From a virus, in IMG/VR virus record IMGVR_UViG_3300009497_000010, positions 1 to 43,433 of that record: a DNA stretch of 43,433 bases; one strand, written 5' to 3'. Made by a program: the position numbers and the translations under genes. Shown here one piece after another: positions 3,772-26,892 of the stretch. Below the pieces are notes generated by a model. It was not told the origin of the DNA. It did no database searches and saw only the letters and a program-made list of their open reading frames with translations. Position 1 is the first letter of the stretch; every line of letters starts with the position of its first letter.

Positions 3772-4083
3772 ATGATCACCACTGGATTCATGCCAGCAGA
3801 ACACAAGTGGAACCGGTCGATCGCACGAGCGAAGGCGGTCGAAGCACTCGCCGAGATTCTCGCCGAGTGCGACATTTGGGATCGAGTGCTCACCCTGCAA
3901 GGACGCAGGTTCGCCCAGGACGAAGGCTTCGAGACCTACGCAGGCCGCGACGAGTTCGGTCCCTGGGTATCCGTGAGCTTCGCCGAGGGACCCGCGCTGA
4001 TGCAGTTCATCCTCGACGAGAACAACGGCGACGGCATCTTCGAGCTGATCGAACACGTCGGCCAGGGTGAGGAGATCCGATGA
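3772..4083 (+). CDS. Hypothetical protein (103 aa)
   Basis: The start is set by the leader CCAACCAACGAAGGACAAGACA just before ATG, which recurs before several genes here. The protein has an amphipathic N-terminal helix (RSIARAKAVEALAEILAECDIWD) and a mixed C-terminus with GPWVSVSFAEGPALMQFIL. No family is recognised. It overlaps the next gene by 4 bases (ATGA), so the two are probably translated together. Confidence 0.75.
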   Translation: MITTGFMPAEHKWNRSIARAKAVEALAEILAECDIWDRVLTLQGRRFAQDEGFETYAGRDEFGPWVSVSFAEGPALMQFILDENNGDGIFELIEHVGQGEEIR

Positions 4084-4349
4084 CCGAGATCCACCCTGCC
4101 CACGAGAAGGCGCGACACCGGCTCGCCTTCGGTCTGGCGTCGAAGCTCGAACAGCTTCGCCCAGACTGGAGTGGCGACCGGCTCGCCGACGCAGTGCGGA
4201 ACGACACCGTCTGGCAGGCGCTGTGGCCGACCGTGCGGCGCATCGAGCCATCGATGGCAACCAGGCTGGCGACGATCGTCGTGCTCCGCCAGGGAGGCAG
4301 CAGCAGCCTGAACGACCGAACCCAACCAACAAGCAAGGACACACCATGA
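4080..4349 (+). CDS. Hypothetical protein (89 aa)
   Basis: Starts in an ATGA overlap with the previous gene and ends 4 bases into the methyltransferase start. It is a helical, Arg-rich protein (ASKLEQLRPDWSGDRLADAV, RIEPSMATRLATIVVLRQ). No known family or motif is recognised. Its C-terminus encodes the CCAACCAACAAGCAAGGA leader of the next gene, so the last residues may be shaped by that signal. Confidence 0.7.
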   Translation: MTEIHPAHEKARHRLAFGLASKLEQLRPDWSGDRLADAVRNDTVWQALWPTVRRIEPSMATRLATIVVLRQGGSSSLNDRTQPTSKDTP

Positions 4350-4957
4350 CAGTTCTCAGTTACGGCGCATGGCGCACGAACGCCGAGCTAATCGCAGACG
4401 TCGCCAAGCTCGGATACCTCGACGGCCGGGTGCTCGACCTCACCTTCGGCGAAGGCAAGTTCTGGACCGACCACCGGCCTCGGGATCTGGAGACCAACGA
4501 CCTCGACGAGGCTAAGGCCGACTGGAGCTTCGACGTGACGAGCACGGTCCCGGAGCACTGGGTCGACGCGTTCGATTCGGTCGTCTTCGATCCTCCGTAT
4601 CGGATGTCGGGTCGGCGAGATGGGCGCACGGCGCTCGTCGACACGAGCTTCGATGACCGCTTCGGTCTCACCGAGTACACCTCGCCGAACGAGGTGCTCG
4701 CTCTCATCAGCTCGGGCATTCAGTTCGCTGCCGGGTGCGTGAAGCCTGGCGGCTCGATCCTCGTGAAGTGCCAGGACCAAGTCTGCTCGGGCCGCAAGGT
4801 CTGGCAGAGCGTGCACGTCCACGAGGTCGCCACGATCCTCGGCCTTCGGGTCGCCGACATGTTTCACCTGATCCAGGGCAACGCCCGACCGCAGCCTTCG
4901 GGTCGACGGCAGGTCCACGCCCGCTCGAACGCTTCGCAGTTGCTGGTGCTGCGATGA
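4346..4957 (+). CDS. Orphan DNA amino-methyltransferase (N6-adenine or N4-cytosine)
   Basis: A 203-residue SAM-dependent methyltransferase. Motif I is LDLTFGEG (residues 30-37), motif IV is DPPY (82-85), and the C-terminus SNASQLLVLR gives the last strand. DPPY marks transfer to an exocyclic amino group of adenine or cytosine. The start at 4346 follows the repeated CAAGGACACACC leader. No restriction endonuclease gene is adjacent, so it is an orphan enzyme, possibly protecting phage DNA from host restriction. The target sequence cannot be told from the protein. Confidence 0.85.
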   Translation: MTVLSYGAWRTNAELIADVAKLGYLDGRVLDLTFGEGKFWTDHRPRDLETNDLDEAKADWSFDVTSTVPEHWVDAFDSVVFDPPYRMSGRRDGRTALVDTSFDDRFGLTEYTSPNEVLALISSGIQFAAGCVKPGGSILVKCQDQVCSGRKVWQSVHVHEVATILGLRVADMFHLIQGNARPQPSGRRQVHARSNASQLLVLR

Positions 4958-9993: not shown

Positions 9994-10460
9994 ACGTCGA
10001 CCTACCGGACGGGCCGAACGCCGCCTTCGTCGACGACGAAGACTGGCACCGCCAGGCCGCGACGATCGCGAAGGTCTGGGCACTCTCGCAATGGTGGATG
10101 GGCGACCTACTCAACGCCGCTCCGTCACCCGACGCCATCAACGACCTGCATTGGTCGTCGCCGCTACTCGAACCCCGAGAGACCGCCGAAGTCCGCGAGA
10201 TCGCCGCCAGCTTCGAACCGCACCGTCGGCGAGATGTCCCGTGGGCCTACCATCGGCGGGTGCAATCGGCGCTGCTACCACCAGACCTGCAAGACTTCCT
10301 GCTCGACACCTGCTCGACGCTCGACCTTCGCTTCATGCACCTGCAAGAGATGATCAGCCGATACCTGAAAGACCAACGCGCTAAACAGATCCGAGCCGAC
10401 CGAGAATCCGGCGACTACGTCGAAGGCGACGGAGTAATCACCTTCCATCAACAGCAATGA
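9990..10460 (+). CDS. Hypothetical protein (156 aa)
   Basis: Overlaps the WhiB-like gene by 4 bases. It is an all-helical protein with several Trp (WALSQWWMGDLL) and a basic C-terminal helix (MISRYLKDQRAKQIRADRES). No domain is recognised. It ends 12 bases before the ParB-like gene of the modification operon and might be its first gene, though its codon use fits the upstream block better. Confidence 0.7.
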   Translation: MNVDLPDGPNAAFVDDEDWHRQAATIAKVWALSQWWMGDLLNAAPSPDAINDLHWSSPLLEPRETAEVREIAASFEPHRRRDVPWAYHRRVQSALLPPDLQDFLLDTCSTLDLRFMHLQEMISRYLKDQRAKQIRADRESGDYVEGDGVITFHQQQ

Positions 10461-10472
10461 CAGGAACCCGAA

Positions 10473-11000
10473 ATGGCAGATAAGAAGATCCACAAGATCG
10501 CACCCGGTCTTGAAACACTGATGACACCGATCGCTGAACTTCACCGGCTACCCAGCAACCCTCGGCTCGGCGACGTTCACGCTGTCGCTAAGTCATACAA
10601 AGAGTTCGGGCAACGCAAGCCTGTCGTGTACCAAACACGCCGAGGGAAAAAAGTTGTAGTGGCAGGCAATCATCAGCTCGAAGCTGTCGCAGGATTAGGG
10701 TGGACACACATTGCCGCGGTGTCTGCCGACGACCTCACAATGAAGCAAGCGCAAGCCTTCGCACTCGCCGACAACAGGATCGGCGAGCTGGGACTCTATG
10801 ACGAGTCTTTGCTCGTCGAGCTGCTTAGTTCTTTGCCTGCCGAGTTGGTCGACGTGACCGGATACTCGGATATCGACATCGAGCGGCTTCTTGGTACCGG
10901 TTACGACTCTGGGAGTGCACCGGAGGGTTTTGACGAGTTCGATGTCGACTCGCTCGATCTTGAACACCAATGCCCTAAGTGTGGGTTCGAGTTCGACTGA
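10473..11000 (+). CDS. ParB-N/sulfiredoxin-like protein, first gene of the modification operon
   Basis: A 175-residue ParB-N domain protein: TPIAELHRLPSNPR, a helix, then VVVAGNHQLEAVAGLGW (signature GNHQ at residues 65-68), and ALADNRIGELGLYDESLL, typical of phage ParB/methyltransferase-associated proteins. It ends in CPKCGFEFD (Cys 167 and 170), half a zinc knuckle. Stand-alone ParB-like genes often precede phage DNA methyltransferases, where they may guide or aid base modification. Its stop overlaps the methyltransferase start (TGATG). The preceding sequence ACAGGAACC is a likely ribosome site. Confidence 0.82.
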   Translation: MADKKIHKIAPGLETLMTPIAELHRLPSNPRLGDVHAVAKSYKEFGQRKPVVYQTRRGKKVVVAGNHQLEAVAGLGWTHIAAVSADDLTMKQAQAFALADNRIGELGLYDESLLVELLSSLPAELVDVTGYSDIDIERLLGTGYDSGSAPEGFDEFDVDSLDLEHQCPKCGFEFD

Positions 11001-12058
11001 TGAAACCGCCCTATCAGATCCCGTCTGTAAGTGATATCAAAGCGGGTGAGAAGACATCTGGCCTCAAGGCCGTGTCGACGTTCTCCGGCGCGGGTGGCGC
11101 TTCGCTCGGATTGGCATGGTCAGGCATCGAAGTGATCTGGGCATCAGAGTTCATCGACGCAGCCGCCGACGTGTACGAGCTAAACAATCCCGGCATTCAA
11201 GTCGACCGCCGAGACATCAGACAAGTGACAGGCAGCGAGATCCTCGACGCTGTCGGTCTCGGCGTCGGTGAACTCGACGTGTTCGAAGGTTCGCCGCCTT
11301 GTGCTTCGTTCTCCATGTCAGGGAAACGCGAAGCAGGATGGGGCAAGGTCAAGTCGTACTCCGAGACCTCCCAGAGGGTCGATGACTTGTTCTTCGAGTT
11401 CGTCCGATTAGTCGACGAGATCCAACCAAAGACCTTCATCGCAGAGAACGTCGATGGCATGACGATGGGAGTCGCTAAGGGTTATCTCAAGGAGATCGTT
11501 CTCAGGCTCCGTGCTATCGGTTACCGGGTCGGAGTCTGGCGGCTCGACTGCTCTAGACTCGGAGTCCCGCAACGAAGAGTGCGCCTAGTCATACATGGCG
11601 TCCGAGACGACCTTCAAGCAGTTCTCGTAGCCCCTAAGCCATTCGACTATGTCTACACCTGGGCCGACGCTACCAAGCAGCCTACGCCCGTTAATGACGA
11701 CCCTCTGCCACCCTGGTCCGCCGACTCGAAACTCGCACGGGTCATGTCGAAAGCTAAACCCGGCGAATCAGGCCAAGCGGTTGTCGGCACCGGCTCTTTC
11801 TTCTCGCACTACAGGCTCGCACCCGGCGAACCGGCACCCACAATCCTACAAACCAACAACTGGGTGCTGCCCCCCTACGAGAACCGACGTATCACGCTTG
11901 GTGAAGTCCGTCGGCTATGCGGATTCCCCGACGACTTCGCCCTCACTGGTAACTTCAGCCAAAGATGGGAACGACTAGGACGCGCAGTCGCGCCTCCGAT
12001 GTACAAAGCCGTCGGCGAGTCGATCATCGAAGCCTTGAAAGGACAACCCAATGGATGA
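11000..12058 (+). CDS. C5-cytosine DNA methyltransferase, predicted carboxymethyltransferase
   Basis: A 352-residue C5-cytosine methyltransferase. Motif I is FSGAGGASLGL; motif IV is GSPPCASFS with nucleophile C101; motif VI is ENV (E149); motif VIII is QRRVR. In motif X the usual LGNAV/LGNSV reads LGRAV, so the conserved Asn is Arg328 (codon at 11981-11983). The engineered M.MpeI N374K change at this residue lets the enzyme use carboxy-SAM and form 5-carboxymethylcytosine. With a CmoA homologue in the same operon, natural carboxymethyl transfer is inferred. ATG at 11000 is chosen because it overlaps the ParB stop; a GTG at 10979 is in frame but less likely. Confidence 0.9.
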   Translation: MKPPYQIPSVSDIKAGEKTSGLKAVSTFSGAGGASLGLAWSGIEVIWASEFIDAAADVYELNNPGIQVDRRDIRQVTGSEILDAVGLGVGELDVFEGSPPCASFSMSGKREAGWGKVKSYSETSQRVDDLFFEFVRLVDEIQPKTFIAENVDGMTMGVAKGYLKEIVLRLRAIGYRVGVWRLDCSRLGVPQRRVRLVIHGVRDDLQAVLVAPKPFDYVYTWADATKQPTPVNDDPLPPWSADSKLARVMSKAKPGESGQAVVGTGSFFSHYRLAPGEPAPTILQTNNWVLPPYENRRITLGEVRRLCGFPDDFALTGNFSQRWERLGRAVAPPMYKAVGESIIEALKGQPNG

Positions 12059-12890
12059 AGTGGCCAAGGAATGGAAGCGCCGACTGATGGCTGTCATCCA
12101 GGAGGGAGAGATGGAGAACATCCCGAACCTGCTTTCGGGCGGGGTCGACTCTGCGACCTTGCTCGCAGCCCAAATGGAGTTGGGAGGGCAACCTCTATGC
12201 GTGACATTCACTATCGGTGGTCGACTCCACGACGATGCCAAGATGGCGATACGGATGGCCGATCGGTACGACCTCGACGCAGAGATAGTCAACTTGGACA
12301 GGTCAAAGACTGCCCTGGTCGCCGACATCCGCAGGATCATGGATATCAGACAGACCGCAAAGAAGGCGTCCATACAGTGCGCCCAACCCATAATGCATAT
12401 CGCCGAGCGGCTTACATCTCTCGGCTTCGATCGTGCGATGATCGGTACTGGTGCAGTTTGTTTGGACGATAAGCGTGTGGCAATTCTCGTGTCACAACAA
12501 GGCGAGGAGGTTGCGCGCGAGTACAGACGGTCGAAGCTCGAAGACCGGTACACAGATTGTGGTACTGGGCACATGCACGGGGTTGCTCGCGATCTTGGCG
12601 TCACGCTCGAAGAGCCTTATTCTGACGAGCCACTACGGGACTATGCGTTGGGTCTGGACTTCTCAGAATTGAACCGCGGACCAGACGGACCGAAGCAGAA
12701 AGGGATCGCAGTTCGAGCGTTCCCCGAGTTCTGGTCGACCCCTGGGTTCTGGCGTCGGAACTCGCCGCTGCAAGTAAACTCAGGCATCAGAGAGTGGCAT
12801 GACCTACTGTTGGTCGACCCCGAGTTCAATACTCGCGGACTGAAATCTGTCGTAGGTGTGTACAACGATATGTTCGCTGGGAAGGTTTGA
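12051..12890 (+). CDS. Asparagine-synthetase-like PP-loop ATP ligase without glutaminase domain
   Basis: A 279-residue protein matching only the C-terminal synthetase half of AsnB. The PP-loop is LLSGGVDSATLL (SGGVDS at residues 29-34). A GTGAVCLDD segment (132-140) aligns with the AsnB SGEGSDE loop. EPYSDEPLRDYAL (188-200) matches the AsnB RVPFLD..L..A block, followed by a Lys (K215). AsnB adenylates a carboxylate and an amine attacks it. There is no N-terminal Cys glutaminase, so the amine must come from elsewhere. In this operon I infer amidation of a carboxymethyl base. It overlaps the methyltransferase by 8 bases. Confidence 0.85.
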   Translation: MDEVAKEWKRRLMAVIQEGEMENIPNLLSGGVDSATLLAAQMELGGQPLCVTFTIGGRLHDDAKMAIRMADRYDLDAEIVNLDRSKTALVADIRRIMDIRQTAKKASIQCAQPIMHIAERLTSLGFDRAMIGTGAVCLDDKRVAILVSQQGEEVAREYRRSKLEDRYTDCGTGHMHGVARDLGVTLEEPYSDEPLRDYALGLDFSELNRGPDGPKQKGIAVRAFPEFWSTPGFWRRNSPLQVNSGIREWHDLLLVDPEFNTRGLKSVVGVYNDMFAGKV

Positions 12891-12891
12891 A

Positions 12892-13863
12892 ATGAAGCTG
12901 ACAGAAGGCCCATACGCTGTTTCTTTGGAACAGGAGTTCGGTTCGTTCCTGACGTCTCACGGTGATGCGTTGCCACTGCAATCGACGGTGGCTTGTTCGT
13001 CAGGAACAACAGCGCTGTTCGGTGCTTTTGTCGGTTGCGGGATCGGCCCGGGTGACGAAGTGGTAGTGCCAGGGTACGGCTTCCAGGCGGCGGCTTTAGC
13101 TGTGTTGATGGTCGGGGCGCAGCCCGTATTCGCTGATGTCGATCCTGTCTGGGGGCTGATCGACCCGGACACTGTCCCGGTCGACGACCCAAAAGCGATA
13201 GTGGCCATCGACCTTGACGGTCGGGTAGCCAACTACGAACGCATCAACGAATTGTTCCCTGATGCTTGGATCGTCGAAGATGCTGCACCGTCTTTGGGTT
13301 CGGCCGGTCTTTGTTCCGAATATGTGGATGTGGCGATCTTCTCCGGGAACGAATCCAAGAAGTGGTCGTGCGGCGAAGGCGGGATGATCTCGACACCCAG
13401 CCGAGATATCGCACATGTGGCGAGGGCCGCCATGAGGTTCGGGGAAACGGACTACAAACCCGCGGGTGGATATCGCACCTCGAACGTGCGAGGTATGAAC
13501 GGGAAGATACCTGAACTGTGCGCAATGACCGGACTCGCTGACCTGCCTTTCGTTCGTGGACGGTCAATAGAGGCGGACAGGTCGCGTAGCATCATCTCTA
13601 TCGAGCTGGGACTGCCTGAAGTCCCGTCTGGCTCGACAGTCGCATGGCACAAGATACGTCTGCCGATAGGGCTACGGGATCGATGGGCGGGACCAACCAC
13701 ACCCACCACGGTCGCTCCATTGGAAGACCATCCGTTGTTCTCTGATTACGTGACGAGACCTCTGGTCGGCGCCCGCCAGTTCCACGAGTCTACTTTCGTG
13801 ATCGGCGACAGAACCCATACTCCTTGGTCGGGCACTCTGCCTGGCTTCTTGAAAGGCAAATAA
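12892..13863 (+). CDS. DegT/DnrJ/EryC1-family PLP aminotransferase
   Basis: A 323-residue fold-type I aminotransferase of the sugar/cyclitol class. ACSSGTTAL (residues 34-42) holds the PLP phosphate, GDEVVVPGYGFQA is the family signature, VEDAA places D130 at the PLP ring nitrogen, and SGNESKKWSCGEGG gives K156 as the likely Schiff-base lysine. Relatives such as StsC and BtrS aminate inososes. It is shorter than the usual 370-400 residues. An amine for the preceding ligase, perhaps on an inositol ring, is inferred. The ATG at 12892 follows a GAAGG site. Confidence 0.88.
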   Translation: MKLTEGPYAVSLEQEFGSFLTSHGDALPLQSTVACSSGTTALFGAFVGCGIGPGDEVVVPGYGFQAAALAVLMVGAQPVFADVDPVWGLIDPDTVPVDDPKAIVAIDLDGRVANYERINELFPDAWIVEDAAPSLGSAGLCSEYVDVAIFSGNESKKWSCGEGGMISTPSRDIAHVARAAMRFGETDYKPAGGYRTSNVRGMNGKIPELCAMTGLADLPFVRGRSIEADRSRSIISIELGLPEVPSGSTVAWHKIRLPIGLRDRWAGPTTPTTVAPLEDHPLFSDYVTRPLVGARQFHESTFVIGDRTHTPWSGTLPGFLKGK

Positions 13864-14924
13864 TGAGCAATGGAAATCGTAAGATCCGAACCGGCTTGGT
13901 TGGGGTAGGAAACTGTGCCGCTGCGTTATTGGAAGGCATCCAGTGGTACGCCGAGAACCCCGGGGAGACGAAGGGCCTGTTGTCCCCGGACATCGACGGA
14001 TACAAGATAGGTGACATCGATGTTGTGATGGCGTTCGATGTCGATGTTCGTAAGGTTGGTTTGACGATCGGAGAGGCAGCAGAGTTCAATGAACGACGAT
14101 TGGCGAAGCCGCTGAACTTCCCAGGGCCAGTGATGCCGTCTCCACGGCTAGACGGGCTTGCGTCGACTTCGATTGTCGAAACCACGGACGACATGACGGC
14201 GTCTGTCGAAGACATCGCACATGAGCTGCGAATGCAGAACCTCGACGTGTTGGTGAATTACCTGCCAGTGGGGTCGACGCTGGCATCGGAACTGTACGCT
14301 CTCGCAGCCGCAGAAGCCGGTGTGGCTTTCCTGAACTGCATACCAGTCGAGATCGCACGCAACGCCACTATCGCCGAACGGTTCGCCCTTCTGAACGTCC
14401 CGTTGATCGGTGATGACATCAAGTCGCAATATGGAGCGACGATCTTGCACAGGTCGCTGGTACGTATTTGCGCCGAGCGTGGCGTCCACTTGGAATCCAC
14501 CTACCAGTTGAACGTCGGAGGCAACGCAGATTTCCGAAACATGCTGGACCAATCGAGACTCACAGACAAGAGGATCTCGAAGACCACTTCGGTGACCGAC
14601 GTGTACCCAGTAGACAAAGTCCATATCGGCCCGTCCGATTATGTCGACCATCTCGATGACACCAAGATCGCTTTCATCAACCTGGACATGGTCGGGTTTG
14701 CCGGGTCGCCGATGTCGGTGGATCTCAAATTGGAGGTCATCGACTCCCCGAACTCTGCTGGCATCGTGGTTGACGGAATCCGTTACCTAGCAGTGGCCAA
14801 GAACCGTGGCATCGGTGGAGTTCTCGACGCGCCGTCTGGGTTCCTGATGAAAGCACCCCAGAACCACACAAACGACGATCTCGGGGCGAAGCGCGCAGCC
14901 GTAGCCTTCTTGTCAGATGAGTGA
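13863..14924 (+). CDS. ino1: myo-Inositol-1-phosphate synthase
   Basis: A 353-residue homologue of actinobacterial Ino1. The NAD-binding start is GLVGVGNCAAALL; GDDIKSQ (183-189), LNVGGNADFRNML (216-228), KVHIGPSD and LKLEVIDSPNSAG (288-300) match the catalytic blocks of the Mycobacterium enzyme, so activity is likely. The reaction turns glucose 6-phosphate into inositol phosphate with internal NAD redox. Actinobacteria use inositol for mycothiol and phosphatidylinositol, but this position between an aminotransferase and a CmoA homologue suggests supply of a cyclitol for DNA modification. Its start overlaps the aminotransferase stop (TAATG). Confidence 0.93.
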   Translation: MSNGNRKIRTGLVGVGNCAAALLEGIQWYAENPGETKGLLSPDIDGYKIGDIDVVMAFDVDVRKVGLTIGEAAEFNERRLAKPLNFPGPVMPSPRLDGLASTSIVETTDDMTASVEDIAHELRMQNLDVLVNYLPVGSTLASELYALAAAEAGVAFLNCIPVEIARNATIAERFALLNVPLIGDDIKSQYGATILHRSLVRICAERGVHLESTYQLNVGGNADFRNMLDQSRLTDKRISKTTSVTDVYPVDKVHIGPSDYVDHLDDTKIAFINLDMVGFAGSPMSVDLKLEVIDSPNSAGIVVDGIRYLAVAKNRGIGGVLDAPSGFLMKAPQNHTNDDLGAKRAAVAFLSDE

Positions 14925-15606
14925 CCAAACGATGCCCGTAGGCAAATGGGAGTTCGACGAGACTGTGACGGCCGTGTTCGACGACATGCTGGCCAGGTCG
15001 ATACCAGAGTTCAAAACAATGCGGGCCGCTGTTTCCGACATCGCCTGCGAGTTCCTACCAAACGGAGGTGTTGTCCTCGACGCCGGATGCTCTAGAGGCG
15101 GCGCACTAGCAGCCGTAATAGCCCGAAGACCAGACTGCACCGCCGTAGGTCTCGAAATATCGGAACCGATGCGACAAAGCGCCGCAGACCGATTCAAACA
15201 CGACTCAAACGTCACCATCCTCCGCTGGGATCTCCGCAACGGCATCCCAGACCAAAGAGTCGACGTCACCCTCGCCGTACTAACCCTGCAATTCACACCC
15301 ATCGAGTACCGCCAACAGATCATCGGCTCAATACGAGAACGAACAAACGGGCCACTCATCCTCGTCGAGAAAGTACTCGGCCGAGGACACCAAATCGACC
15401 AGAAAATGGTTGATCTCTACTACAGAATGAAACGATCACACGGCTACACCCAAGAACAAATCGACACCAAGCGACACTCGCTCGAAGGCCAACTCGTACC
15501 CCTCACCGCAGCAGGGAACGAAACCCTGCTCAAAGACTGCGGATATCAATCAGTCGACTGCTTCTGGCGATGGATGAACTTCGCCGCATGGATCGCCCTG
15601 CCATAA
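14917..15606 (+). CDS. cmoA: CmoA-like carboxy-S-adenosylmethionine synthase
   Basis: A 229-residue protein alignable to E. coli CmoA (247 residues) over its length. The N-terminus [20 protein letters not shown] matches [30 protein letters not shown] is the SAM loop; LTLQFTP matches [25 protein letters not shown] matches NGYSELEISQKRSMLEN, keeping Arg186 at the place of Arg199, which binds the carboxylate; and the Trp/Phe-rich end matches too. CmoA converts SAM plus prephenate to carboxy-SAM for tRNA cmo5U with CmoB. No CmoB is seen here, so I infer that the product feeds the cytosine enzyme. It overlaps ino1 by 8 bases. Confidence 0.9.
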   Translation: [229 protein letters not shown]

Positions 15607-15703: not shown

Positions 15704-16171
15704 GTGTTACGCGGGCGGATGGTCGGGGCGACCTTCGCTGCGATAGCTGCTGGCCTGTCGAGGGAAACGAAAGACGGGCAACCGGTCGACGAAGCCACGG
15801 TGCGCCGAAGGTACCAATCGGCCATCGAGGACTACCGTGTGCCGCGCGCGGAGTGGGAGCGGTACAGAGGTGTTCAGTTAGCTGAGATCGAGGCAGCGAA
15901 GGAGAAAGCGCTGTCGGCGATCTTGGGGTGGAACCGGAGCCAGCCGCCTGGTGACCTATCGGGACCAATCGCTTCACTTGTAAGGCTTCAGGAACGTGCC
16001 GACCGTGTGATCGGGTTTCCGCAGGAGGCACCGGCACCGCCACCGGCGAACGCTGGCGCTCTCGATTACGTGCGGAGCATCGTCACGAATCAGGTCGCGC
16101 ATAAGGCCATGCTCGCTTCGATGAAGATGATTGAGACAGAGATCCTCGACGTCGAGATCCTCGACGAATGA
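15704..16171 (+). CDS. Probable terminase small subunit
   Basis: At least 155 residues. An HTH-like segment (GATFAAIAAGLSRE, then DEATVRRRYQSAIEDY), a long helix (LAEIEAAKEKALSAILGW) and an acidic C-terminus fit a small terminase. It overlaps the large subunit by 4 bases. GTG at 15704 is the first standard start, but the in-frame sequence upstream to a CTG at 15632 (preceded by ACAGGAAG) encodes KRFTEHEVAEQKAAVLRGRM, which would complete the first HTH helix. The true start may therefore be that CTG. Confidence 0.7.
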   Translation: MLRGRMVGATFAAIAAGLSRETKDGQPVDEATVRRRYQSAIEDYRVPRAEWERYRGVQLAEIEAAKEKALSAILGWNRSQPPGDLSGPIASLVRLQERADRVIGFPQEAPAPPPANAGALDYVRSIVTNQVAHKAMLASMKMIETEILDVEILDE

Positions 16172-17808
16172 CGGTCACCGACGGCGACCGCACCGAGTCG
16201 GCTTGGATGCTGAACCCGGCGCGGATGAACGAACGACTGAACCCAGACAGTCGCACGAACTATCCACACATCGATCTCATCGCGTCGGAGAACATCGCGT
16301 CGGTCCTCGACCCCGACGTCTTCATCCACGTCACGCAGACCCAGAACCAGATCGGGAAGTCATCGACGGTAGCCGAGGGTGTCGTGACCTGGCTGCTGGA
16401 GCTGTTCCCGACGCTGCCGATCATGATCGGCTCGCACTCGAAGGAGCTAAGTCGCAAGTCGGGGCGGGCGGTGCGAAACAACTTCGCCAACAACCCCGAC
16501 ATTCTGTCGACGAGGGTCTCAGGCGACTCGAAGGCCGCGGATCGGTGGAACACCACCAGGGGCGGCTCGGTGCTCGCCACGTCGGTCGGAGGCGGTGTCG
16601 GCTGGCCTGCCACCGTGTTCGTCGGTGACGACCTGCTGAAGAACTTCATCATGGCGCAGAACCCGGCAAACCGGCAGAAGGCGATCGATTGGCTGATGGG
16701 CGATGTCATCGGCAAGCTCCGCAAGCACATCGTGAGAATGGATGATGGCACCCGCTTCACGATCCATCCGACAGTCTTGCTACCGGCGACCCGCTATCAC
16801 CTCGATGATCCGTCGGGCCGTATGCTCGAACTATTCCCTGACCGGTCGAGGGTGACACACCTGCCGGGTCTGGCCGACCCGGCGATCTCGGATCCTGACC
16901 CGCTCGGCCGTGCACCGGGCCAGGTCGTCTGCCCCGACTTCTACGATCGCGAGGAGATGGAGAACCTTCGCGAAGTGATGGACGACGTCACCTTCGCCAC
17001 GATGGTCCAGGGCACGCCACGCAACCTGACCGGCGGAACCATCAACCGCGACCGCTGGGTCTGGGCGTCGGCCGCTCCGATCAAGGACGACCGGCGACTA
17101 CTCACGTTCACCTCGTGGGATCTCACGTTCACCGACACCGGCTCTTCCTGGGTAGTCGGGCAGCTCTGGACCGCGCTCCAGTCGCCGACCTCGCCGAGAC
17201 TCTTCGACCTGTACCTGCTCGACCAGATCCGGCGGAAAGCAGACTTCGTCGGGCAGCGGTTGATGATCCGAGCGTTCTGCGAAGCGAACCCCGATGCGAC
17301 ACATCACTTGATCGAGAACAAGGCGAATGGCGCTGCGATCATCGCCGACCTGGGCAGCGAGTGGATCGACACGACCTTCGACGATCCGGCACCGGGCGAG
17401 CTGCGACGGAGCAAGGGTGCGACGGTCGGCTTCGACGGCACGAGGCGTTGGCCTGCGATCTCTGGGATCGTGCCGATCACACCGTCGACCTCGAAGCTTG
17501 CCAGGGTGCTCGACATCTCTCGGCTCGTGCACGACGGCCGCGTGTTCCTGCCCGAGTGGTGGGAGCCATCAAGCTCGCCGAGGTTCCCTGGCGACCTGGG
17601 CGACGACCCGATGCACCAGTTCCCGGCCTCACTGATCAACGAAGCCGCCGACGTCCCGTACGGTGCGACGGATGATGAGATCGACACGGCCACGCAGGCG
17701 ATCTCGTGGGCGAGGGATTACCTCGGGCCGCTGCTGGCCGACGGGATCTGGGGTGTGGATAACGGGCCGAGGGTGGCGACGAACACGTCGATGATGGGCA
17801 GGCGTTAA
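16168..17808 (+). CDS. Terminase large subunit
   Basis: A 546-residue packaging ATPase/nuclease. The P-loop is QTQNQIGKSS (58-66), an atypical Walker A that keeps GKS. Walker B is VFVGDDLLKN (D154/D155), followed by the NRQKAIDWLMGDV coupling block. The RNase H-like nuclease shows TSWDLTF (D318) and IENKANGAAII (E383), matching the family's SWD and E-K-A-N-G motifs. It docks to the portal encoded at 22955 and fills the capsid. The stretch between motor and virion genes holds accessory genes, so the packaging and head modules are split by about 5 kb. Confidence 0.93.
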   Translation: MTVTDGDRTESAWMLNPARMNERLNPDSRTNYPHIDLIASENIASVLDPDVFIHVTQTQNQIGKSSTVAEGVVTWLLELFPTLPIMIGSHSKELSRKSGRAVRNNFANNPDILSTRVSGDSKAADRWNTTRGGSVLATSVGGGVGWPATVFVGDDLLKNFIMAQNPANRQKAIDWLMGDVIGKLRKHIVRMDDGTRFTIHPTVLLPATRYHLDDPSGRMLELFPDRSRVTHLPGLADPAISDPDPLGRAPGQVVCPDFYDREEMENLREVMDDVTFATMVQGTPRNLTGGTINRDRWVWASAAPIKDDRRLLTFTSWDLTFTDTGSSWVVGQLWTALQSPTSPRLFDLYLLDQIRRKADFVGQRLMIRAFCEANPDATHHLIENKANGAAIIADLGSEWIDTTFDDPAPGELRRSKGATVGFDGTRRWPAISGIVPITPSTSKLARVLDISRLVHDGRVFLPEWWEPSSSPRFPGDLGDDPMHQFPASLINEAADVPYGATDDEIDTATQAISWARDYLGPLLADGIWGVDNGPRVATNTSMMGRR

Positions 17809-17809
17809 C

Positions 17810-17998
17810 GTGTATCACATGCTGGAAAACATGAAAGATAGGGTCATCCTGAGAAGGCATAAATGGCATGTGACAGGACTTCATGCCAGAGACAAAAACG
17901 GTAAAGACTTTCAGACTGTCCTGTGCAGCCGCTGCTGGTGGTACAAGGATGATGCAGGCAGACCCCGACTGTGCAACACGTCGAGGCGGCGACGATGA
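17810..17998 (+). CDS. Small hypothetical protein (62 aa)
   Basis: Begins 1 base after the terminase stop with GTG; ATG codons at 17819 and 17831 are alternatives. The protein is basic, with a CSRCWW pair and a final Cys. Its DNA is noticeably more A/T-rich than its neighbours (ggaaaacatgaaagataggg). It has no recognised family. The composition suggests a recent insert between terl and the next promoter. Confidence 0.55.
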   Translation: MYHMLENMKDRVILRRHKWHVTGLHARDKNGKDFQTVLCSRCWWYKDDAGRPRLCNTSRRRR

Positions 17999-18000
17999 AA

Positions 18001-18053
18001 GATATTTCACTGGGTAACGCGTCAACCCGTTGGTAACGCGCTAAGGTGTACTC
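18001..18053 (+). promoter_or_regulatory. Twin-GTAACGCG leaderless promoter, copy 3
   Basis: GTAACGCG at 18014-18021 and 18033-18040, TAAGGT at 18042-18047, gap gtactc, ATG at 18054. The upstream tract is gatatttcac. Confidence 0.82.
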
Positions 18054-18383
18054 ATGAACGAAAAAGCAACCCCCGAAATGTACGTAGCGGGAGTCGAAGC
18101 GCTCCGATCTGAAGCTTCAGCGAAACGGAAGGCTGATACGAGTGCAGCGCTACGAGAAACAGGCGAGACCGTCGACGGCCTGCCTGTCCTTGAGGTTGCT
18201 ACAGATTCAGGTTCTCCAGCCGTCCTGCGCTTGACCGAAACGATGTGCGCTTGCGGCGAGTACCTGGGGACACACCAGTTCGTGTACTGGAAGAAGTCAC
18301 ATGGCTACCTGCACGTCGCATGCCTGGACCTAGCTTCATCTGGGTACAAGCCTGGCGAGTCCCAGGGTGGACTGTTCGCATGA
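18054..18383 (+). CDS. Hypothetical protein with CxC/C zinc-like end (109 aa)
   Basis: A leaderless gene. The N-terminal half is helical and charged; the C-terminal half has CACGEYLGTHQFVYWKKSHGY with a later HVACL, a possible zinc-binding beta domain. The first 18 bases (ATGAACGAAAAAGCAACC) are identical to the start of the minus-strand gene ending at 31939, showing that promoter and first codons were copied together. No function is recognised. Confidence 0.75.
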   Translation: MNEKATPEMYVAGVEALRSEASAKRKADTSAALRETGETVDGLPVLEVATDSGSPAVLRLTETMCACGEYLGTHQFVYWKKSHGYLHVACLDLASSGYKPGESQGGLFA

Positions 18384-18418
18384 TCACCAACCAGCCAACC
18401 AACCACGAAGGAACCAAC

Positions 18419-18835
18419 ATGAACATCATCGAAATTGCCGAAGAAACCGGAGCGAAGGAAACGGCAAACACCGCAAAACCACCCGCAGCACTCCAGGCAC
18501 GAGCCGAGCGCATCGCCGCCCAGTTCCGAGGCGCAGGCCACACGGTCGACATCGACCATCAGGACTGCTCCAGCGAATACGGCGCTGCCTGGTTCACCTC
18601 GATCATCTTCGATGACAAGGCGACGCGGCACATACTGAACTCGTCGTCGGGCCACGTCCTGCTCTCCTGCGGCAGATCCGGCCGGACCCGCTTCGACTCG
18701 ATCCTCGTGATGAGCTTCTCCGGCATCCAGAAGTCGAAGAAGCTGGCAGACGCTCAGATCAAGGCGGACGTCTACGCAGGACTTCACCGCAACGAGTGCC
18801 CATACGGTCTGCCATTCCAAGCGGACTTCCGGTGA
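18419..18835 (+). CDS. Hypothetical protein (138 aa)
   Basis: The start follows the CCAACCAACCACGAAGGAACCAAC leader. Residues 25-60 contain QARAERIAAQFRGAGHTVDI, followed by a beta-rich region (WFTSIIFDDKATRHILN, GHVLLSCGRSGRTRF). The C-terminus is helical. It may be a single alpha/beta domain; no family is recognised. It overlaps the next gene by 4 bases. Confidence 0.72.
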   Translation: MNIIEIAEETGAKETANTAKPPAALQARAERIAAQFRGAGHTVDIDHQDCSSEYGAAWFTSIIFDDKATRHILNSSSGHVLLSCGRSGRTRFDSILVMSFSGIQKSKKLADAQIKADVYAGLHRNECPYGLPFQADFR

Positions 18836-19077
18836 GCGCTGACGCCGACCTGCTTGCGGCTCTGCTGCTCGGAGGTGAGATCACCGCCGACGCTGCCGTG
18901 TCGGAGCTGGCGGCACGGCAGGCCGTCAGCTCACCTAGGACGTCGCCTGGCAAGGTTCGGGCTGCTGCCGCCCGAGCGATCTCGTCGAGGTTGCCTCGGA
19001 GCGAGCAGCCCGCCTTCTGGCAGGCGCTGCCGGTCACGCAGCCGAGGCAGGGACCGTATCGGGTGCGGTCGAGGTGA
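18832..19077 (+). CDS. Hypothetical Ala-rich protein (81 aa)
   Basis: Starts at a GTG overlapping the previous stop. It is rich in Ala and Arg, with the helix DLLAALLLGGEITADAAVSEL and a basic C-terminus (RQGPYRVRSR). No family is recognised. An open frame starting at 19074 is not annotated because it runs through the next promoter. Confidence 0.6.
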   Translation: MSADADLLAALLLGGEITADAAVSELAARQAVSSPRTSPGKVRAAAARAISSRLPRSEQPAFWQALPVTQPRQGPYRVRSR

Positions 19078-19120
19078 TCGAGCGTCGACGCCTTTGGGTG
19101 TCGGCGCTCCGGGTCGTATC

Positions 19121-19176
19121 AAAGAAAGTTCACCCGGTAACGCGTCAAGCCGTTGGTAACGCGCTAAGGTGTCTAC
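19121..19176 (+). promoter_or_regulatory. Twin-GTAACGCG leaderless promoter, copy 4
   Basis: GTAACGCG at 19137-19144 and 19156-19163, TAAGGT at 19165-19170, gap gtctac, ATG at 19177. It is preceded by aaagaaagttcac. Confidence 0.82.
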
Positions 19177-19377
19177 ATGAGCAATCACGAAGCAACCATC
19201 AACCAAGCCCTAGCAGCAGCCCAGATCTGGGTGAGCGACCGCAAGGCGGCGGAAGTCCTAGCTCGCCGTAAGGGCGAAGAGATGCTCGCCGACCCGGCCA
19301 ACGCCGATCGGCTCGCCAAGATCCGAGCACGTCGCAACGAGACTCGCGGCCTCGGCCGGGGCGCAAGCCAGCGATAA
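19177..19377 (+). CDS. Small hypothetical protein (66 aa)
   Basis: A leaderless gene. It is a charged helical protein (INQALAAAQIWVSDRKAAEVL, RRKGEEMLADPANADRLAKI) ending in a basic Gly/Arg tail. No family is recognised. Its first residues MSNHEATIN resemble the start of the protein at 21435 (MSNPKATIN), another case where promoter and first codons look copied together. ArdA follows 27 bases downstream. Confidence 0.7.
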   Translation: MSNHEATINQALAAAQIWVSDRKAAEVLARRKGEEMLADPANADRLAKIRARRNETRGLGRGASQR

Positions 19378-19404
19378 CAACCCAACCAACCAGAAGGAAC
19401 CGAC

Positions 19405-19917
19405 ATGAACAACTCACCAGCAATCTACGTAGCAAGTCTCTCGGACTACAACGAAGGCCGACTCCACGGCGAGTGGATCGACGCCACCCTCGACGCCGAA
19501 GACATCCAGGCCGAAATCGCCGACATGCTCGAAGCCTCGACGATCCCCAACGCCGAAGAATGGGCGATCCACGATCATGAGGGATTCCCGGTGAAGCTCG
19601 GCGAGTGGGAATCCATCGAGTGGATCTCAGCGCTCGGCCAGGCCATCGAGGCGCACGGAGCGGACATCGTTGAGGCGGCGGTCAATCACCTGGGCGTTGA
19701 CACGCCAGACGACCTCAGGGCCGCTGTAAACGATTGCGCCGCCCATCAGAGCTGGGACGCTGCGGTCGAGTCGTACGCCGAGTCGTCTGGCCTCTACGAG
19801 CTGGCGGCAGTCCATCGCGGCCTGGTCGTCGACGAGCGAGGCATCCGGGTCATGCTCGAAGCGAACGGCACGTACCACGAGAACCGCGGCGGCAGCGTCG
19901 TGGAGTTCTTCGGATGA
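19405..19917 (+). CDS. ardA: ArdA antirestriction protein
   Basis: A 170-residue ArdA family member: IYVASLSDYNEGRLHGEWID at the N-terminus, then AEIADMLEASTIPNAEEWAI and HDHEGFPVKLGEWESIEW are family signatures. The protein is strongly acidic, as expected for a DNA mimic that blocks type I restriction-modification enzymes. It follows the CCAACCAACCAGAAGGAACCGAC leader and is probably transcribed early from the twin-repeat promoter upstream. With two methyltransferases it adds a further layer against host restriction. Confidence 0.93.
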   Translation: MNNSPAIYVASLSDYNEGRLHGEWIDATLDAEDIQAEIADMLEASTIPNAEEWAIHDHEGFPVKLGEWESIEWISALGQAIEAHGADIVEAAVNHLGVDTPDDLRAAVNDCAAHQSWDAAVESYAESSGLYELAAVHRGLVVDERGIRVMLEANGTYHENRGGSVVEFFG

Positions 19918-20372
19918 GCTACGTAATCGGGGACACCTACGCACCGGCGATAGTCAACGACGACCGATCAGGATTAAACGACGAAGACGAAGAACTGCTC
20001 GAAGCCTTCTTATCTGACTTGCCAACTCGGACGGTACTGATCATGGGCGAGGATCTGGGGTTCACGCGCTGCCAGGTCTCGGGACTCATGAGCGAGTGCC
20101 ACGAGTACGAGGAGCTACTGCCACGGGTACGAGGACATCTCCGTATAATCCGCCCACACGAGATTCGGCTCACCGGATCAACACTCGACCGATTCGCTCG
20201 CAGCTCAGCCAGGGGCACGCTCGTCGAGCTGCAAGCCTGGTGCCTCGACCAGTGGGATCTCGACGGCTACGAATGCTTCATCTACGACCAGCACGGTCGG
20301 GTCGTCGAGACGTTCGGTGACACCGAGATCTCGCCTGGTGATTGCATCGACGTCGACTTGTGGGAGCTATGA
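19914..20372 (+). CDS. Hypothetical acidic protein (152 aa)
   Basis: Starts in an ATGA overlap with ardA. It is acidic, with a helical N-terminus (DEDEELLEAFLSDLPTRTVL), a possible HTH-like stretch (GEDLGFTRCQVSGLMSEC) and a C-terminal beta-rich region (LDGYECFIYDQHGRVVETF). Co-translation with ardA may hint at an anti-defence role, but no family is recognised. Confidence 0.68.
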   Translation: MSYVIGDTYAPAIVNDDRSGLNDEDEELLEAFLSDLPTRTVLIMGEDLGFTRCQVSGLMSECHEYEELLPRVRGHLRIIRPHEIRLTGSTLDRFARSSARGTLVELQAWCLDQWDLDGYECFIYDQHGRVVETFGDTEISPGDCIDVDLWEL

Positions 20373-20611
20373 TCGGGCTGATGGAATCAAAACGGGTCAA
20401 GCGCAACGGGGCAGCGTTAGAGGCGGTCGCCGCCTGGTGTGGCGGCAGGCAATGCAGTCAGGGCGTCATCGTGCCGACCGCGACCGGCGAAGTGCTCGCC
20501 CGGTTCGGCGACGTCATCGCCTTCATCGACGAGGGCTTCGAGGTGATCGCCCAGGGTCTCTCGTCTGACGGGCAGCCGTCCTTCGAGATCTTCGACGTCG
20601 GTCAACGATGA
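20369..20611 (+). CDS. Hypothetical protein (80 aa)
   Basis: Starts in an ATGA overlap; a second Met at 20381 is possible. It is a small beta-rich protein (GVIVPTATGEVLARFGDVIAF, FEVIAQGLSSDGQ) with two Cys (WCGGRQC). It overlaps the HNH gene by 4 bases. No family is recognised. Confidence 0.65.
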   Translation: MIGLMESKRVKRNGAALEAVAAWCGGRQCSQGVIVPTATGEVLARFGDVIAFIDEGFEVIAQGLSSDGQPSFEIFDVGQR

Positions 20612-21093
20612 GCGACAAGCTGCCGACGCTGAAGCAAGCGAAGACGACGGCGCTCCAGCTTCACTCGCTGCTCGTGCGTGAAGCCGGGAACGGCTGCGCG
20701 GCTCGGGGCATCATCCGAGGCGACTGCGGGCCGGTCATGCAATGCGCTCACATCATCCCGAAGCGGAAGAACACGCAGGTCGCCACCGACATCGCCAATG
20801 CCTGGCAGCTCTGCGCAGGGCATCACGTCGAGGTCGACTCGAACCCGGCGCTCTGGCTTCGCCTCGTCGAGCAGACCGTCTCGACTCTGCTCGTACGGCA
20901 GATGATGGCCGAGGTCGAGGAGGCGTGGACGAAGGGCGTGCTCTGGTGCGAGGTCGACGAGGCGTGGCACACCCCGACGAAGTGGTGGCGGTGTGAGGCG
21001 GTGCGGCTCTGGGAGCTGTGCGAGATCCGCGGGATCGAGCCGACCGGCACGACCCAATTCATGAAGCGATACTGCGAAGGACAGGCAGCGTGA
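20608..21093 (+). CDS. HNH endonuclease-like protein
   Basis: A 161-residue protein. After a helical N-terminus, GCAARGIIRGDCG then QCAHIIPKRKN and NAWQLCAGHHVEVD form a zinc-finger HNH core (Cys pairs with AH, N and HH). The second half is Trp-rich and helical. It resembles NinG-type recombination nucleases and other stand-alone HNH proteins of phages. It is not beside the terminase, so a packaging link is not supported by position. Confidence 0.78.
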   Translation: MSDKLPTLKQAKTTALQLHSLLVREAGNGCAARGIIRGDCGPVMQCAHIIPKRKNTQVATDIANAWQLCAGHHVEVDSNPALWLRLVEQTVSTLLVRQMMAEVEEAWTKGVLWCEVDEAWHTPTKWWRCEAVRLWELCEIRGIEPTGTTQFMKRYCEGQAA

Positions 21094-21251
21094 GCAACCC
21101 GAAGGGCAACAACGGATTCGGTCGGGTGCGGTCGCCGGAGAACGATGCGAAGTATAAGCTGCGGCAGGAGGCGGCGTTGAAGCGGCAGGCTGCGGAGGCT
21201 CGCCGTGCGGTGCGACGGGAACGCACACTCGCACGGCGGGCTAGCCGCTAG
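21090..21251 (+). CDS. Small basic protein (53 aa)
   Basis: Starts at a GTG overlapping the HNH stop. It is extremely rich in Arg, Lys and Ala (LRQEAALKRQAAEARRAVRR), suggesting nucleic-acid binding by a single helix. It is the last gene before a promoter gap of about 180 bp. The gap holds a weak hairpin near 21264-21296 and the next twin-repeat promoter. Confidence 0.6.
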   Translation: MSNPKGNNGFGRVRSPENDAKYKLRQEAALKRQAAEARRAVRRERTLARRASR

Positions 21252-21379
21252 GATCATCAGAGCGCGACGACCGCCGAGCTGCATCGGCTGATCGTCATGG
21301 GGGGCGGTTGAGAGACTGCGCGACGCCGGTTTTGTGGTTTGTCCGGTTCATTGTCAGGCCGTCCCCCGATCTCGCCTCA

Positions 21380-21434
21380 AAGAAATTTCACCGAGTAACG
21401 CGTCAAGTCGTTCATGACGCGTTACCCTGTAGTC
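21380..21434 (+). promoter_or_regulatory. Twin-repeat leaderless promoter, divergent copy 5
   Basis: GTAACGCG at 21395-21402; the second site is altered to ATGACGCG (21414-21421) at the same 19-bp period. TACCCT at 21423-21428, gap gtagtc, ATG at 21435. It keeps the AT-rich aaagaaatttcac tract. The changed second site may alter its control. Confidence 0.75.
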
Positions 21435-22280
21435 ATGAGCAACCCCAAAGCAACCATCAACAGCAACGCAGACTTCCAGTTCCTCCGCACCGTCGGCTTC
21501 GAGGTCCGCACCTACACCCCAGCAGCCGGGAGCCTCATCCCCGGCGAGCCGATGCCGAGCGGCACCTGCGACTACTGCGGCACCGGCATCAAGTACGCCG
21601 TCGTCTGCGAAGACACCCGCAACGGCGGGCGCTGCGACATCGGCATGGACTGCGCAGAGAAGATCGGCTTCACACCTGCGGAGATCCGAAACCTTCGACG
21701 CAGCTACGAAGCCTCGACCCCCGAGGCGATCGCTCGCCGCAAGGCAGCACGAGCCGCCGAGAAAGCAGCGAACGAACGCTTCGTCGAGATCGAGCGGGCG
21801 AAGGACGAAGCTCGGCCTCGCATCCCTCGCAACGTCGCAGTGTCGACCGCACTGTTCGACCTCGAAGGCAACCTGATCACGACCAACGTGATCAGCGGGA
21901 AGTTCGGGCCAGCCTGGAAGATCCCCAACGGTGGTGGCTTCGTCTCGGCTTACCCCAAGCGCCTCACGACTATGAGCAAGAAGGGGTATTACGAAGGCAC
22001 CGTGATCAGCGAGCGCATCGTCGGCCGGTCGTCCACCTGGGCACCTACCGACGACCGTTACGAGGAGAACGTCGTCGCCATCATCGACAACGGCACCGAC
22101 GCCACGGCTCACCTCGTCGACAACCGCACCGACAAGGAGCGCCGCGGATACCACGATCAGAGCGACGCAGACAACGTCGTCTGGGTCGATCCGACTCCGG
22201 CACCGTACGCCGACTTCCTCGCTGGCTACCGTGAAGCCTGCGACGCAGCCTGGGCAGAGTTCGACGCTCTGAAGTTCTGA
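21435..22280 (+). CDS. Zinc-motif protein of unknown function (281 aa)
   Basis: The leaderless promoter fixes the start at 21435. Residues about 35-75 contain CDYCGTGIKYAVVCEDTRNG and a later GRCDIGMDCAEKIG, giving two Cys pairs for zinc. A long charged helix follows (EAIARRKAARAAEKAANERF), then a beta-rich region (LFDLEGNLITTNVISGKFG, YYEGTVISERIVG) that resembles small beta-barrel modules. The protein at 30225 has a similar layout of Cys pairs, helix and strands. No function is recognised. Confidence 0.75.
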   Translation: MSNPKATINSNADFQFLRTVGFEVRTYTPAAGSLIPGEPMPSGTCDYCGTGIKYAVVCEDTRNGGRCDIGMDCAEKIGFTPAEIRNLRRSYEASTPEAIARRKAARAAEKAANERFVEIERAKDEARPRIPRNVAVSTALFDLEGNLITTNVISGKFGPAWKIPNGGGFVSAYPKRLTTMSKKGYYEGTVISERIVGRSSTWAPTDDRYEENVVAIIDNGTDATAHLVDNRTDKERRGYHDQSDADNVVWVDPTPAPYADFLAGYREACDAAWAEFDALKF

Positions 22281-22319
22281 TCGACGGCATGGCGGGCGGG
22301 CCGGGTAGGCTCGCTCGTC

Positions 22320-22793
22320 GTGTTTGCATCTCTTGTACTTTCCGCTCTTCTGCTGGCGCAGCCGACTCCGACGGACTTCGGCCCGTGGAACGGGGTGATC
22401 GACTGCGAGTCGGGCGGTGTCGCCAACATCGAGAACCCGAACTCGACGGCCTCGGGCCTGTGGCAGTTCCTCGACACCTCGTGGGACTGGACCGCCGAGC
22501 ACGCTGGCCGGTGGGATCTCGTCGGGACCAGGGCGAAGGATGCGTCGGTCGCTGATCAGTGGGCGATGGCCGAGCACCTGCGCACGATGCCCGGTGGCGG
22601 TATCTCTCACTGGATCTGCGGCTACCGCTACGGCGACGGCACCGGGCCGATCTCGGTAGCATGGGACCCGGCCGACAGGGTGGCACCGCAACGTCGAACC
22701 ACCCTGTCGACGCCGGAGCCGACGCCGGTCTTCGAGGTCTTCGAGGTTCCGACCAGATCCTCGGGTGGAGGCGGCGCTGCCCTCGTGATGTAG
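22320..22793 (+). CDS. Transglycosylase/Rpf-like secreted lysozyme-fold protein
   Basis: A 157-residue protein starting at GTG, with a hydrophobic signal sequence (MFASLVLSALLLAQP). The core WNGVIDCESGG, with the catalytic Glu in CES, and NSTASGLWQFLDTSWDW match the resuscitation-promoting-factor/lytic transglycosylase fold that cuts peptidoglycan. The Pro/Gly-rich C-terminus looks unstructured. A TAGGCT box lies 8 nt before the start, so it may be leaderless. It may aid lysis or cell-wall passage; no holin is adjacent. Confidence 0.78.
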   Translation: MFASLVLSALLLAQPTPTDFGPWNGVIDCESGGVANIENPNSTASGLWQFLDTSWDWTAEHAGRWDLVGTRAKDASVADQWAMAEHLRTMPGGGISHWICGYRYGDGTGPISVAWDPADRVAPQRRTTLSTPEPTPVFEVFEVPTRSSGGGGAALVM

Positions 22794-22864
22794 GGTCGGG
22801 TTCGGGTCGGCTCATTTCCTCGTCGGCTCAGTCGTCCCGTGCAGGGCGGCACCTCCAAAGGACA

Positions 22865-22908
22865 CGACCCCGGTCGGCGCAGCCAATAGGCGCACGCTGC
22901 CGGGGTCG
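22865..22908 (+). terminator. Hairpin before the virion module
   Basis: CGACCCCGG (22865-22873) pairs with CCGGGGTCG (22900-22908), and GCG/CGC can pair inside the loop. It lies between the transglycosylase gene and the portal promoter, which supports a terminator separating the two transcription units. Confidence 0.6.
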
Positions 22909-22911
22909 TCG

Positions 22912-22954
22912 TCGCGTCCCGGCTCGATGCGGTCGCAGGCGTTAGCCTGGCCGT
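22912..22954 (+). promoter_or_regulatory. TCGCGTCCC-type promoter of the portal gene
   Basis: TCGCGTCCC at 22912-22920, 22 nt, TAGCCT at 22943-22948, a 6-nt gap and ATG at 22955. The start is leaderless. The same upstream word recurs before four other virion transcription units. Confidence 0.75.
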
Positions 22955-24709: not shown

Positions 24710-24714
24710 ACCGG

Positions 24715-24750
24715 TCGCGTCCCAGGGTCCCGTCTTAGGTGCGCCATGAT
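24715..24750 (+). promoter_or_regulatory. TCGCGTCCC-type promoter upstream of the scaffold gene
   Basis: TCGCGTCCC at 24715-24723, 21 nt, then CATGAT at 24745-24750. Unlike the other four sites the gene start is 33 nt downstream and has its own AGGAAAG site, so this transcript would have a short leader. Confidence 0.65.
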
Positions 24751-24782
24751 CAGTGTGTCAACTCTCCCGACAGGAAAGACAC

Positions 24783-25385: not shown

Positions 25386-25407
25386 TCAACATTGAAAGGG
25401 GCCAGCG

Positions 25408-26874: not shown

Positions 26875-26892
26875 ACATCTAGACTGTGATCG

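Follow-up and report, generated by a model that had tools for sequence, protein, structure and literature searches.

A candidate DNA hypermodification operon lies at positions 10473-15606 of a 43,433 nucleotide viral DNA, positions 1 to 43,433 of IMG/VR record IMGVR_UViG_3300009497_000010 (the whole of this stretch is called the window). Six open reading frames (ORFs) were confirmed on the + strand over this interval. With the best start codons they encode a ParB-like protein (10473-11000), the predicted DNA cytosine C5-carboxymethyltransferase CmoX (11000-12058), a CmoY-like, single-domain ATP-dependent amide ligase (12051-12890), a pyridoxal phosphate (PLP) aminotransferase of the DegT/DnrJ/EryC1/StrS family (12892-13863), an inositol-3-phosphate synthase homologue of the mycobacterial type (MIPS/INO1; 13863-14924), and CmoA, a predicted synthase of carboxy-S-adenosylmethionine (carboxy-SAM; 14917-15606). 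The initial annotation had assigned the six genes to these families, and it was right: five are clear Pfam matches and the first is ParB-like by PHROG. Its overlaps of 1-8 bases are present at most junctions (1, 8, 1 and 8 bases at ParB/CmoX, CmoX/CmoY, DegT/MIPS and MIPS/CmoA), but CmoY and DegT are separated by a 1-base gap. The G+C content at 10001-15000, the operon region, is 57.5% vs 61.9% for the whole window.

The operon was also found on a twin contig, IMGVR 3300025886_001605, at 99.98% DNA identity with 14.9 kb aligned. Because the twin carries the operon and ends elsewhere, the operon is not an assembly error confined to the window contig. A divergent second copy is present on the 92 kb IMG/VR contig 3300028840_004217 (L050), where the order CmoX-CmoY-DegT-MIPS-CmoA is the same as in the window. 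Best-segment identities with the window proteins are 55% for CmoX, 51% for CmoY, 34% for DegT, 45% for MIPS and 48% for CmoA. L050 differs in having an extra gene between MIPS and CmoA, which resembles uracil-DNA glycosylase (PF03167, 1.8e-4, just under the cut-off).

The core of the operon has a characterized counterpart in Synechococcus phage S-B43 (Yang et al. 2025, PMC12783734). According to the text of that article, experiments on S-B43 established CmoA as the source of carboxy-SAM, CmoX, with Arg350 replacing the Asn of motif X, as the enzyme forming 5-carboxymethylcytosine (5cxmC) in GC motifs, and CmoY as the ligase coupling glycine to 5cxmC. The same text gives 5,615 CmoX candidates, many of which have genes for CmoA, a ligase and ParBc nearby, assigns glutaminase-fused ligases to ammonia, describes the amines of the other ligase clusters as still to be identified, and shows Escherichia coli to be a source of carboxy-SAM (PMC12783734). 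Like the window, S-B43 encodes CmoA, an Arg-type CmoX and an AsnB-type ligase in adjacent genes, and the link with ParB was reported (PMC12783734). Unlike the window, it has a glycine-using CmoY with other motifs, and no DegT or MIPS is annotated within the 12.8 kb shown. The initial annotation took the gene set to be undescribed, which cannot be maintained, since CmoA, CmoX, CmoY and the ParB neighbor were already reported in December 2025 (PMC12783734). What is new here is the CmoX-CmoY-DegT-MIPS-CmoA order with a distinct ligase subtype; the core CmoA/CmoX/CmoY chemistry is already known.

CmoX belongs to PF00145 (4e-49). Its top match among 45 PDB sequences below 1e-5 is 8YF3 (SpCmoX, 2e-55). 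The nucleophile motif GSPPC is present, and its Cys (residue 108 counted from 10979, 101 from the ATG at 11000) aligns with that of 8YF3. At motif X, where a basic residue had been anticipated in place of Asn, CmoX has Arg (residue 335 from 10979, 328 from the ATG); the window sequence LGRAVAPP aligns with VGRMVPP of 8YF3, which contains R350 of SpCmoX. CmoX relatives were gathered by similarity in IMG/VR, and the set consists of the best 80 of at least 588 confirmed relatives (at least 600 pattern matches). Many contigs in this set, and in the MIPS set described below, are short fragments. Both Arg and Cys are kept in 80/80 relatives. CmoA lies within the fetched stretch in 78/80 relatives. 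ParB relatives were detected by tblastn in 67/80 loci, the twin included, and are thus usual CmoX neighbors. The ParB-like protein of the window is of the ParBc type, has a CPKCG C-terminus and matches PHROG_620, 'ParB-like partition protein' (3.3e-33), with no Pfam match at 0.01. From these alignments, window CmoX is predicted to use carboxy-SAM to put a carboxymethyl group on C5 of cytosine. The proposed chain from carboxy-SAM through 5cxmC to an amide was shown in S-B43, as reported in PMC12783734, and window CmoX matches the diagnostic residues.

CmoX and CmoA adjoin with no ligase detected in the contigs L105, L109, L148, L164, L175 and L102 (two of them, L109 and L102, are short), and 5cxmC may be the end-product base of these phages. 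In Staphylococcus phage vB-SscS-F1 (L010:7491-8498), CmoA, a ligase and a C5-methyltransferase are consecutive. This methyltransferase lacks the motif X Arg, with Gly in the aligned position, and therefore may bind carboxy-SAM in a different way.

CmoA has a methyltransferase domain. Its best NCBIfam model is TIGR00740 (4.1e-39), with 134.7 bits vs a cut-off of 193.3. The experimentally validated SpCmoA scores 115.6 bits on this model, likewise below the cut-off and lower than window CmoA. PDB matches were 1im8 (6.2e-27) and 4gek (5.3e-23).

CmoY matches the Asn_synthase family PF00733 (1.7e-9) and QueC (1.7e-5) and has the PP-loop SGGVDS at residue 29; a phmmer search against the PDB returned no match. 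An AlphaFold2 model was obtained with a mean predicted local distance difference test score (pLDDT) of 90.9. The first 12 rows of its fold comparison, with asparagine, beta-lactam and carbapenam synthetases and TsnB9, have Z scores of 18.1-23.7 over 245-260 residues. Human asparagine synthetase scored 23.7 (root mean square deviation 2.8, 258 residues), beta-lactam synthetase 22.8 and carbapenam synthetase 20.5; LarE scored 12.4 and NAD synthetases about 11. Since the match to the AsnB group is well above LarE and the NAD synthetases, the model points to an amide ligase of the AsnB/beta-lactam synthetase group rather than QueC.

The ligases of the window and L050 are 52% identical, and each consists of a ligase domain of 279 amino acids with no glutaminase domain. 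A ligase ORF is present at 40 of the CmoX loci; by a crude motif test, 11 of these ligases are glutaminase-fused, 24 are single-domain (the twin included) and 5 are other types or fragments. The window and L050 ligases were aligned with 14 of the 23 other single-domain ligases. Whole motifs were compared, since the alignment register near GTGAV is unsure. DGHF (12/14), H.NLQ (14/14) and NLQLGDS (13/14) characterize the other single-domain CmoYs, and all three are absent from the window and L050 ligases. GTGAVCLDDK and RRNSPLQVNSG.REWHD are common to the window and L050 and were found in 0/14 of the others. SpCmoY has GADGYYG and NLQLG, which places it closer to the 14 than to the window and L050. 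In judging the glycine subtype, the motifs DGHF, H.NLQ and NLQLGDS serve as a proxy for the published glycine-site residues. An SKK motif was dropped as a diagnostic because it is present in 11/14 and also elsewhere in the L050 protein. These comparisons suggest that the window and L050 CmoYs form a subtype of their own. No viral copies of this subtype beyond the two contigs were found in the searches made, and none in bacteria or prophages among the genome contigs searched. In this sample of two phages, the change in ligase type therefore goes together with the two putative amine-making genes.

An oxygenase gene lies just 3' of the ligase in Erwinia phage Y3 (L008:8942-9580) and Salmonella phage Sen-NF (L017:6757-7404). 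The Y3 copy was tested and is a 2-oxoglutarate-Fe(II) oxygenase by Pfam. Possibly this enzyme oxidizes the amide further.

The DegT protein matches PF01041 (2.1e-34, 119.8 bits vs 19.8). Lys156 and Asp130, which we take to be the PLP Lys and Asp, are invariant across 18 aligned sequences. The DegT of L050 keeps these two positions, and its MIPS keeps the Lys and Asp positions of window MIPS. Sequence matches include the 2-deoxy-scyllo-inosose aminotransferases 2c7t and 5w71 as well as NtdA, below a few others; sugar aminotransferases rank as high as or higher than 2c7t and 5w71. The structural model (mean pLDDT 76.2) has a sugar aminotransferase fold, with Z scores of 30-33 and many tied rows. 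Window DegT may transaminate an inosose.

MIPS matches PF01658 (2.3e-29), and its first PDB match is INO1 of Mycobacterium tuberculosis (1gr0, 5.1e-84, 286 bits). Residues K200, K253, D307 and K343 (counted from 13824), presumably catalytic, align with 1gr0. The second PDB match is 6k96 (6.4e-60, 207 bits), a five-membered-cyclitol-phosphate synthase that we take to be Ari2. The Lys of GDDIKSQ in window MIPS is as in INO1 and is Ala in 6k96. The MIPS set consists of 80 phage contigs, kept from 104 MIPS relatives. CmoA was found in 2/80 MIPS contigs, the twin and L050. DegT was found in 8/80, adjoining MIPS in the twin and L050 alone and at least 13 kb away in the other six. Among the CmoX contigs 2/80 carry DegT, the twin and L122, the latter at a distance of about 26 kb, and MIPS occurs in one of the 80 CmoX loci (the twin), counted in the fetched stretches. 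Outside the window, its twin and L050, it is thus rare for MIPS, DegT and CmoA to occur together on a contig.

MIPS is also found in other settings. Eighteen named records of Stenotrophomonas and Caulobacter phages contain it, and neither genus is among the named organisms tallied for the CmoA search. A plasmid search gave 109 records, the top rows being inositol-3-phosphate synthases where annotated. In 35/80 MIPS loci a small gene lies within about 2 kb 3' of MIPS (e.g. L005:9995-11730). The L005 copy resembles the phosphatase half of the polynucleotide kinase family (phrog_415, 1.8e-15). Perhaps the small gene encodes an inositol-phosphate phosphatase, with the phage making free inositol. 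In Stenotrophomonas phage Marzo (L005, 9092-14615) and phage Moby (L219), MIPS is inside an apparent 7-deazaguanine operon whose annotated genes are GTP cyclohydrolase, MIPS, a QueC-like gene, queuine tRNA-ribosyltransferase and a QueE-like gene; tblastn matched one or more of four 7-deazaguanine operon genes in 9/80 MIPS loci. Inositol may decorate another modified base in phages of this type. A divergent C5-methyltransferase homologue with a weak CmoX-profile score is near MIPS in 18/80 loci (e.g. L041:14009-15106 and L056:13726-14946), and PF00145 was confirmed in these two examples.

We consider it somewhat likely that the window carries a CmoA/CmoX/CmoY-type hypermodification operon extended by its own amine genes, in which an aminocyclitol is joined to 5cxmC. 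CmoA would convert SAM and prephenate to carboxy-SAM, and CmoX, guided by the motif X Arg, would move the carboxymethyl group onto C5 of phage DNA cytosines. MIPS would convert glucose 6-phosphate to inositol phosphate, and DegT would aminate an inosose derived from it. CmoY would then adenylate the carboxylate of 5cxmC and couple the amine. The predicted product is an inosityl amide of 5cxmC (calculated nucleoside m/z 447.17 for the amino-inositol amide), which could shield phage DNA from host nucleases. Given the predicted activities of MIPS and DegT, the likeliest amine is an aminocyclitol such as inosamine or a near relative; we infer both this identity and the protective role. The strongest part of the proposal is the repeated CmoY-DegT-MIPS-CmoA order together with the separate ligase subtype, and the weakest is the chemistry beyond 5cxmC.

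A precedent for this use of the two genes is the pathway proposed for hygromycin A, in which MIPS Hyg18, phosphatase Hyg25, dehydrogenase Hyg17 and aminotransferase Hyg8 lead to neo-inosamine-2, as set out in PMC10949010. The likeness lies in MIPS and an aminotransferase serving an aminocyclitol; the difference is that a phosphatase and a dehydrogenase belong to the hygromycin A pathway itself (PMC10949010).

Several observations weigh against an aminocyclitol made by the operon. No inositol dehydrogenase (PF01408) or inositol monophosphatase (PF00459) was found in the twin or L050, with 14/14 controls positive. Pfam and PHROG scans of the larger ORFs, with a motif scan, likewise found no such enzyme at window positions of about 15837-22415, which are outside the twin. 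The phage would therefore rely on its host for the dehydrogenase and phosphatase steps, or skip them. The MIPS score on TIGR03450, the mycothiol INO1 model (8.5e-94), is 314.6 bits, far under the equivalog cut-off of 638. The MIPS tree, which has long branches, separates the window from L050 (together in 0/200 bootstrap trees), and the two CmoA proteins fail to group in a quick CmoA tree. This may reflect separate recruitment or fast change, placement in these trees being unsure. Window DegT is short and its C-terminus is weakly modeled, and its fold ranking cannot separate inosose from sugar substrates. Finally, independent examples of the extended cassette number only two.

If the missing steps are skipped, MIPS, or a version of it releasing an inosose-phosphate intermediate, could feed DegT directly, and CmoY could couple amino-inositol phosphate to 5cxmC. 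This is a tentative possibility. Such a two-step route would use no phage dehydrogenase or phosphatase; that it places inositol on cytosine, perhaps phosphorylated (m/z 447.17, or 527.14 with phosphate), is likewise conceivable but doubtful.

We also considered whether 5cxmC is amidated with another DegT-made amine, either a five-ring aminocyclitol from an Ari2-like MIPS or an amino sugar phosphate from a KabA/NtdA-like DegT. The 6k96 match of MIPS is in keeping with the former. For the latter, the DegT sequence matches include KabA (7kz3, 2.7e-23) and NtdA (4k2b, 4.8e-19); both presumably act on sugar phosphates, and the NtdA row of the DegT fold comparison names kanosamine-6-phosphate. However, MIPS scores higher with INO1 than with 6k96 and has the INO1-like Lys in GDDIKSQ. 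Another amine of this kind is unlikely.

MIPS and DegT could have some purpose other than supplying CmoY, given that SpCmoY is also a single-domain ligase and takes glycine (PMC12783734). But the SpCmoY-like ligase motifs are replaced in the window/L050 subtype, and DegT and MIPS are inside the cassette of two divergent phages, with window junctions ranging from an 8-base overlap to a 1-base gap. We regard a separate purpose as quite improbable.

The initial annotation offered ammonia or an amino-inositol as the amine. The amino-inositol fits the presence of DegT and MIPS and the gene order of L050. Plain ammonia, which would give a primary amide, is a poor candidate, because the window ligase lacks the glutaminase domain of its ammonia-type relatives. 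Such fused ligases do occur at 11 of the CmoX loci and in Streptomyces phage TurkishDelight. This phage is like the window in its ParB-CmoX-ligase-CmoA order, and its CmoX is 44% identical. It differs from the window in having a ligase of the glutaminase-fused type, with neither DegT nor MIPS lying between this ligase and CmoA; its whole record gave no DegT match. In the window and L050, DegT and MIPS accompany the single-domain ligase instead, and coupling of free ammonia by this CmoY is very unlikely. A chance placement of MIPS and DegT as auxiliary metabolic genes, for host inositol or mycothiol supply or a surface sugar, is just as hard to credit. In its favor, 78/80 MIPS phage contigs (many being fragments) have no CmoA match, the closest NCBIfam model for MIPS is that of mycothiol INO1, and the WhiB-like gene of the window hints at a host among the actinobacteria. 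Against it, the two divergent phages have both genes in the same place, after CmoY and before CmoA, and share the special CmoY subtype.

An aminocyclitol joined to 5cxmC would bear directly on the CmoY groups whose amines were left open in the text of PMC12783734. As the phage seemingly encodes amine synthesis next to the ligase, the locus offers a concrete candidate for such an amine. If the proposal is true, this DNA would contain an amide-linked cyclitol, a bulky polyol added without a glycosyltransferase, and the CmoY ligase would be a tool for attaching polyhydroxy amines to DNA cytosines. It also suggests a general approach, in which the amine of a CmoY is deduced from the genes beside the ligase. 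No published description of an amino-inositol CmoY, or of inositol in phage DNA modification, was found in the open-licence PMC literature. The main text of PMC12783734 does not contain 'aminotransferase', 'inositol' or 'DegT'.

The window is from a tailed phage, with terminase, portal, major head and tape measure proteins, ERF, a single-stranded DNA-binding protein and a transglycosylase-like domain. No nucleotide-level matches to named phages were found. The first base of the twin corresponds to window position 15836 and its last 4797 bases to 22416-27212, so the two contigs are offset. From this offset, with the intervening stretch aligned only in part, the genome would be circularly permuted and about 51 kb long. 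Eight ORFs from the roughly 8 kb of the twin that would be outside the window were compared with PHROGs; a RecE-like exonuclease straddling the junction and an endolysin were recognized, and the other six had no match.

Other modification genes were also sought. The reported absence of a thymidylate-synthase-like gene was upheld, with no match in the window, twin or L050 and 9/14 controls positive. TET/JBP (PF12851) had no match in the same three sequences, which shows little as the controls gave none either. Glycosyltransferases were covered just by Pfam and PHROG scans over part of the window ORFs, with no aimed search made. Another DNA methyltransferase-like gene, with no Pfam match, is at 4067-4957 (phrog_24333, 5.2e-17). 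ArdA is encoded at 19405-19917 (PF07275, 2.1e-23); this anti-restriction protein would be a second counter to restriction beside base modification.

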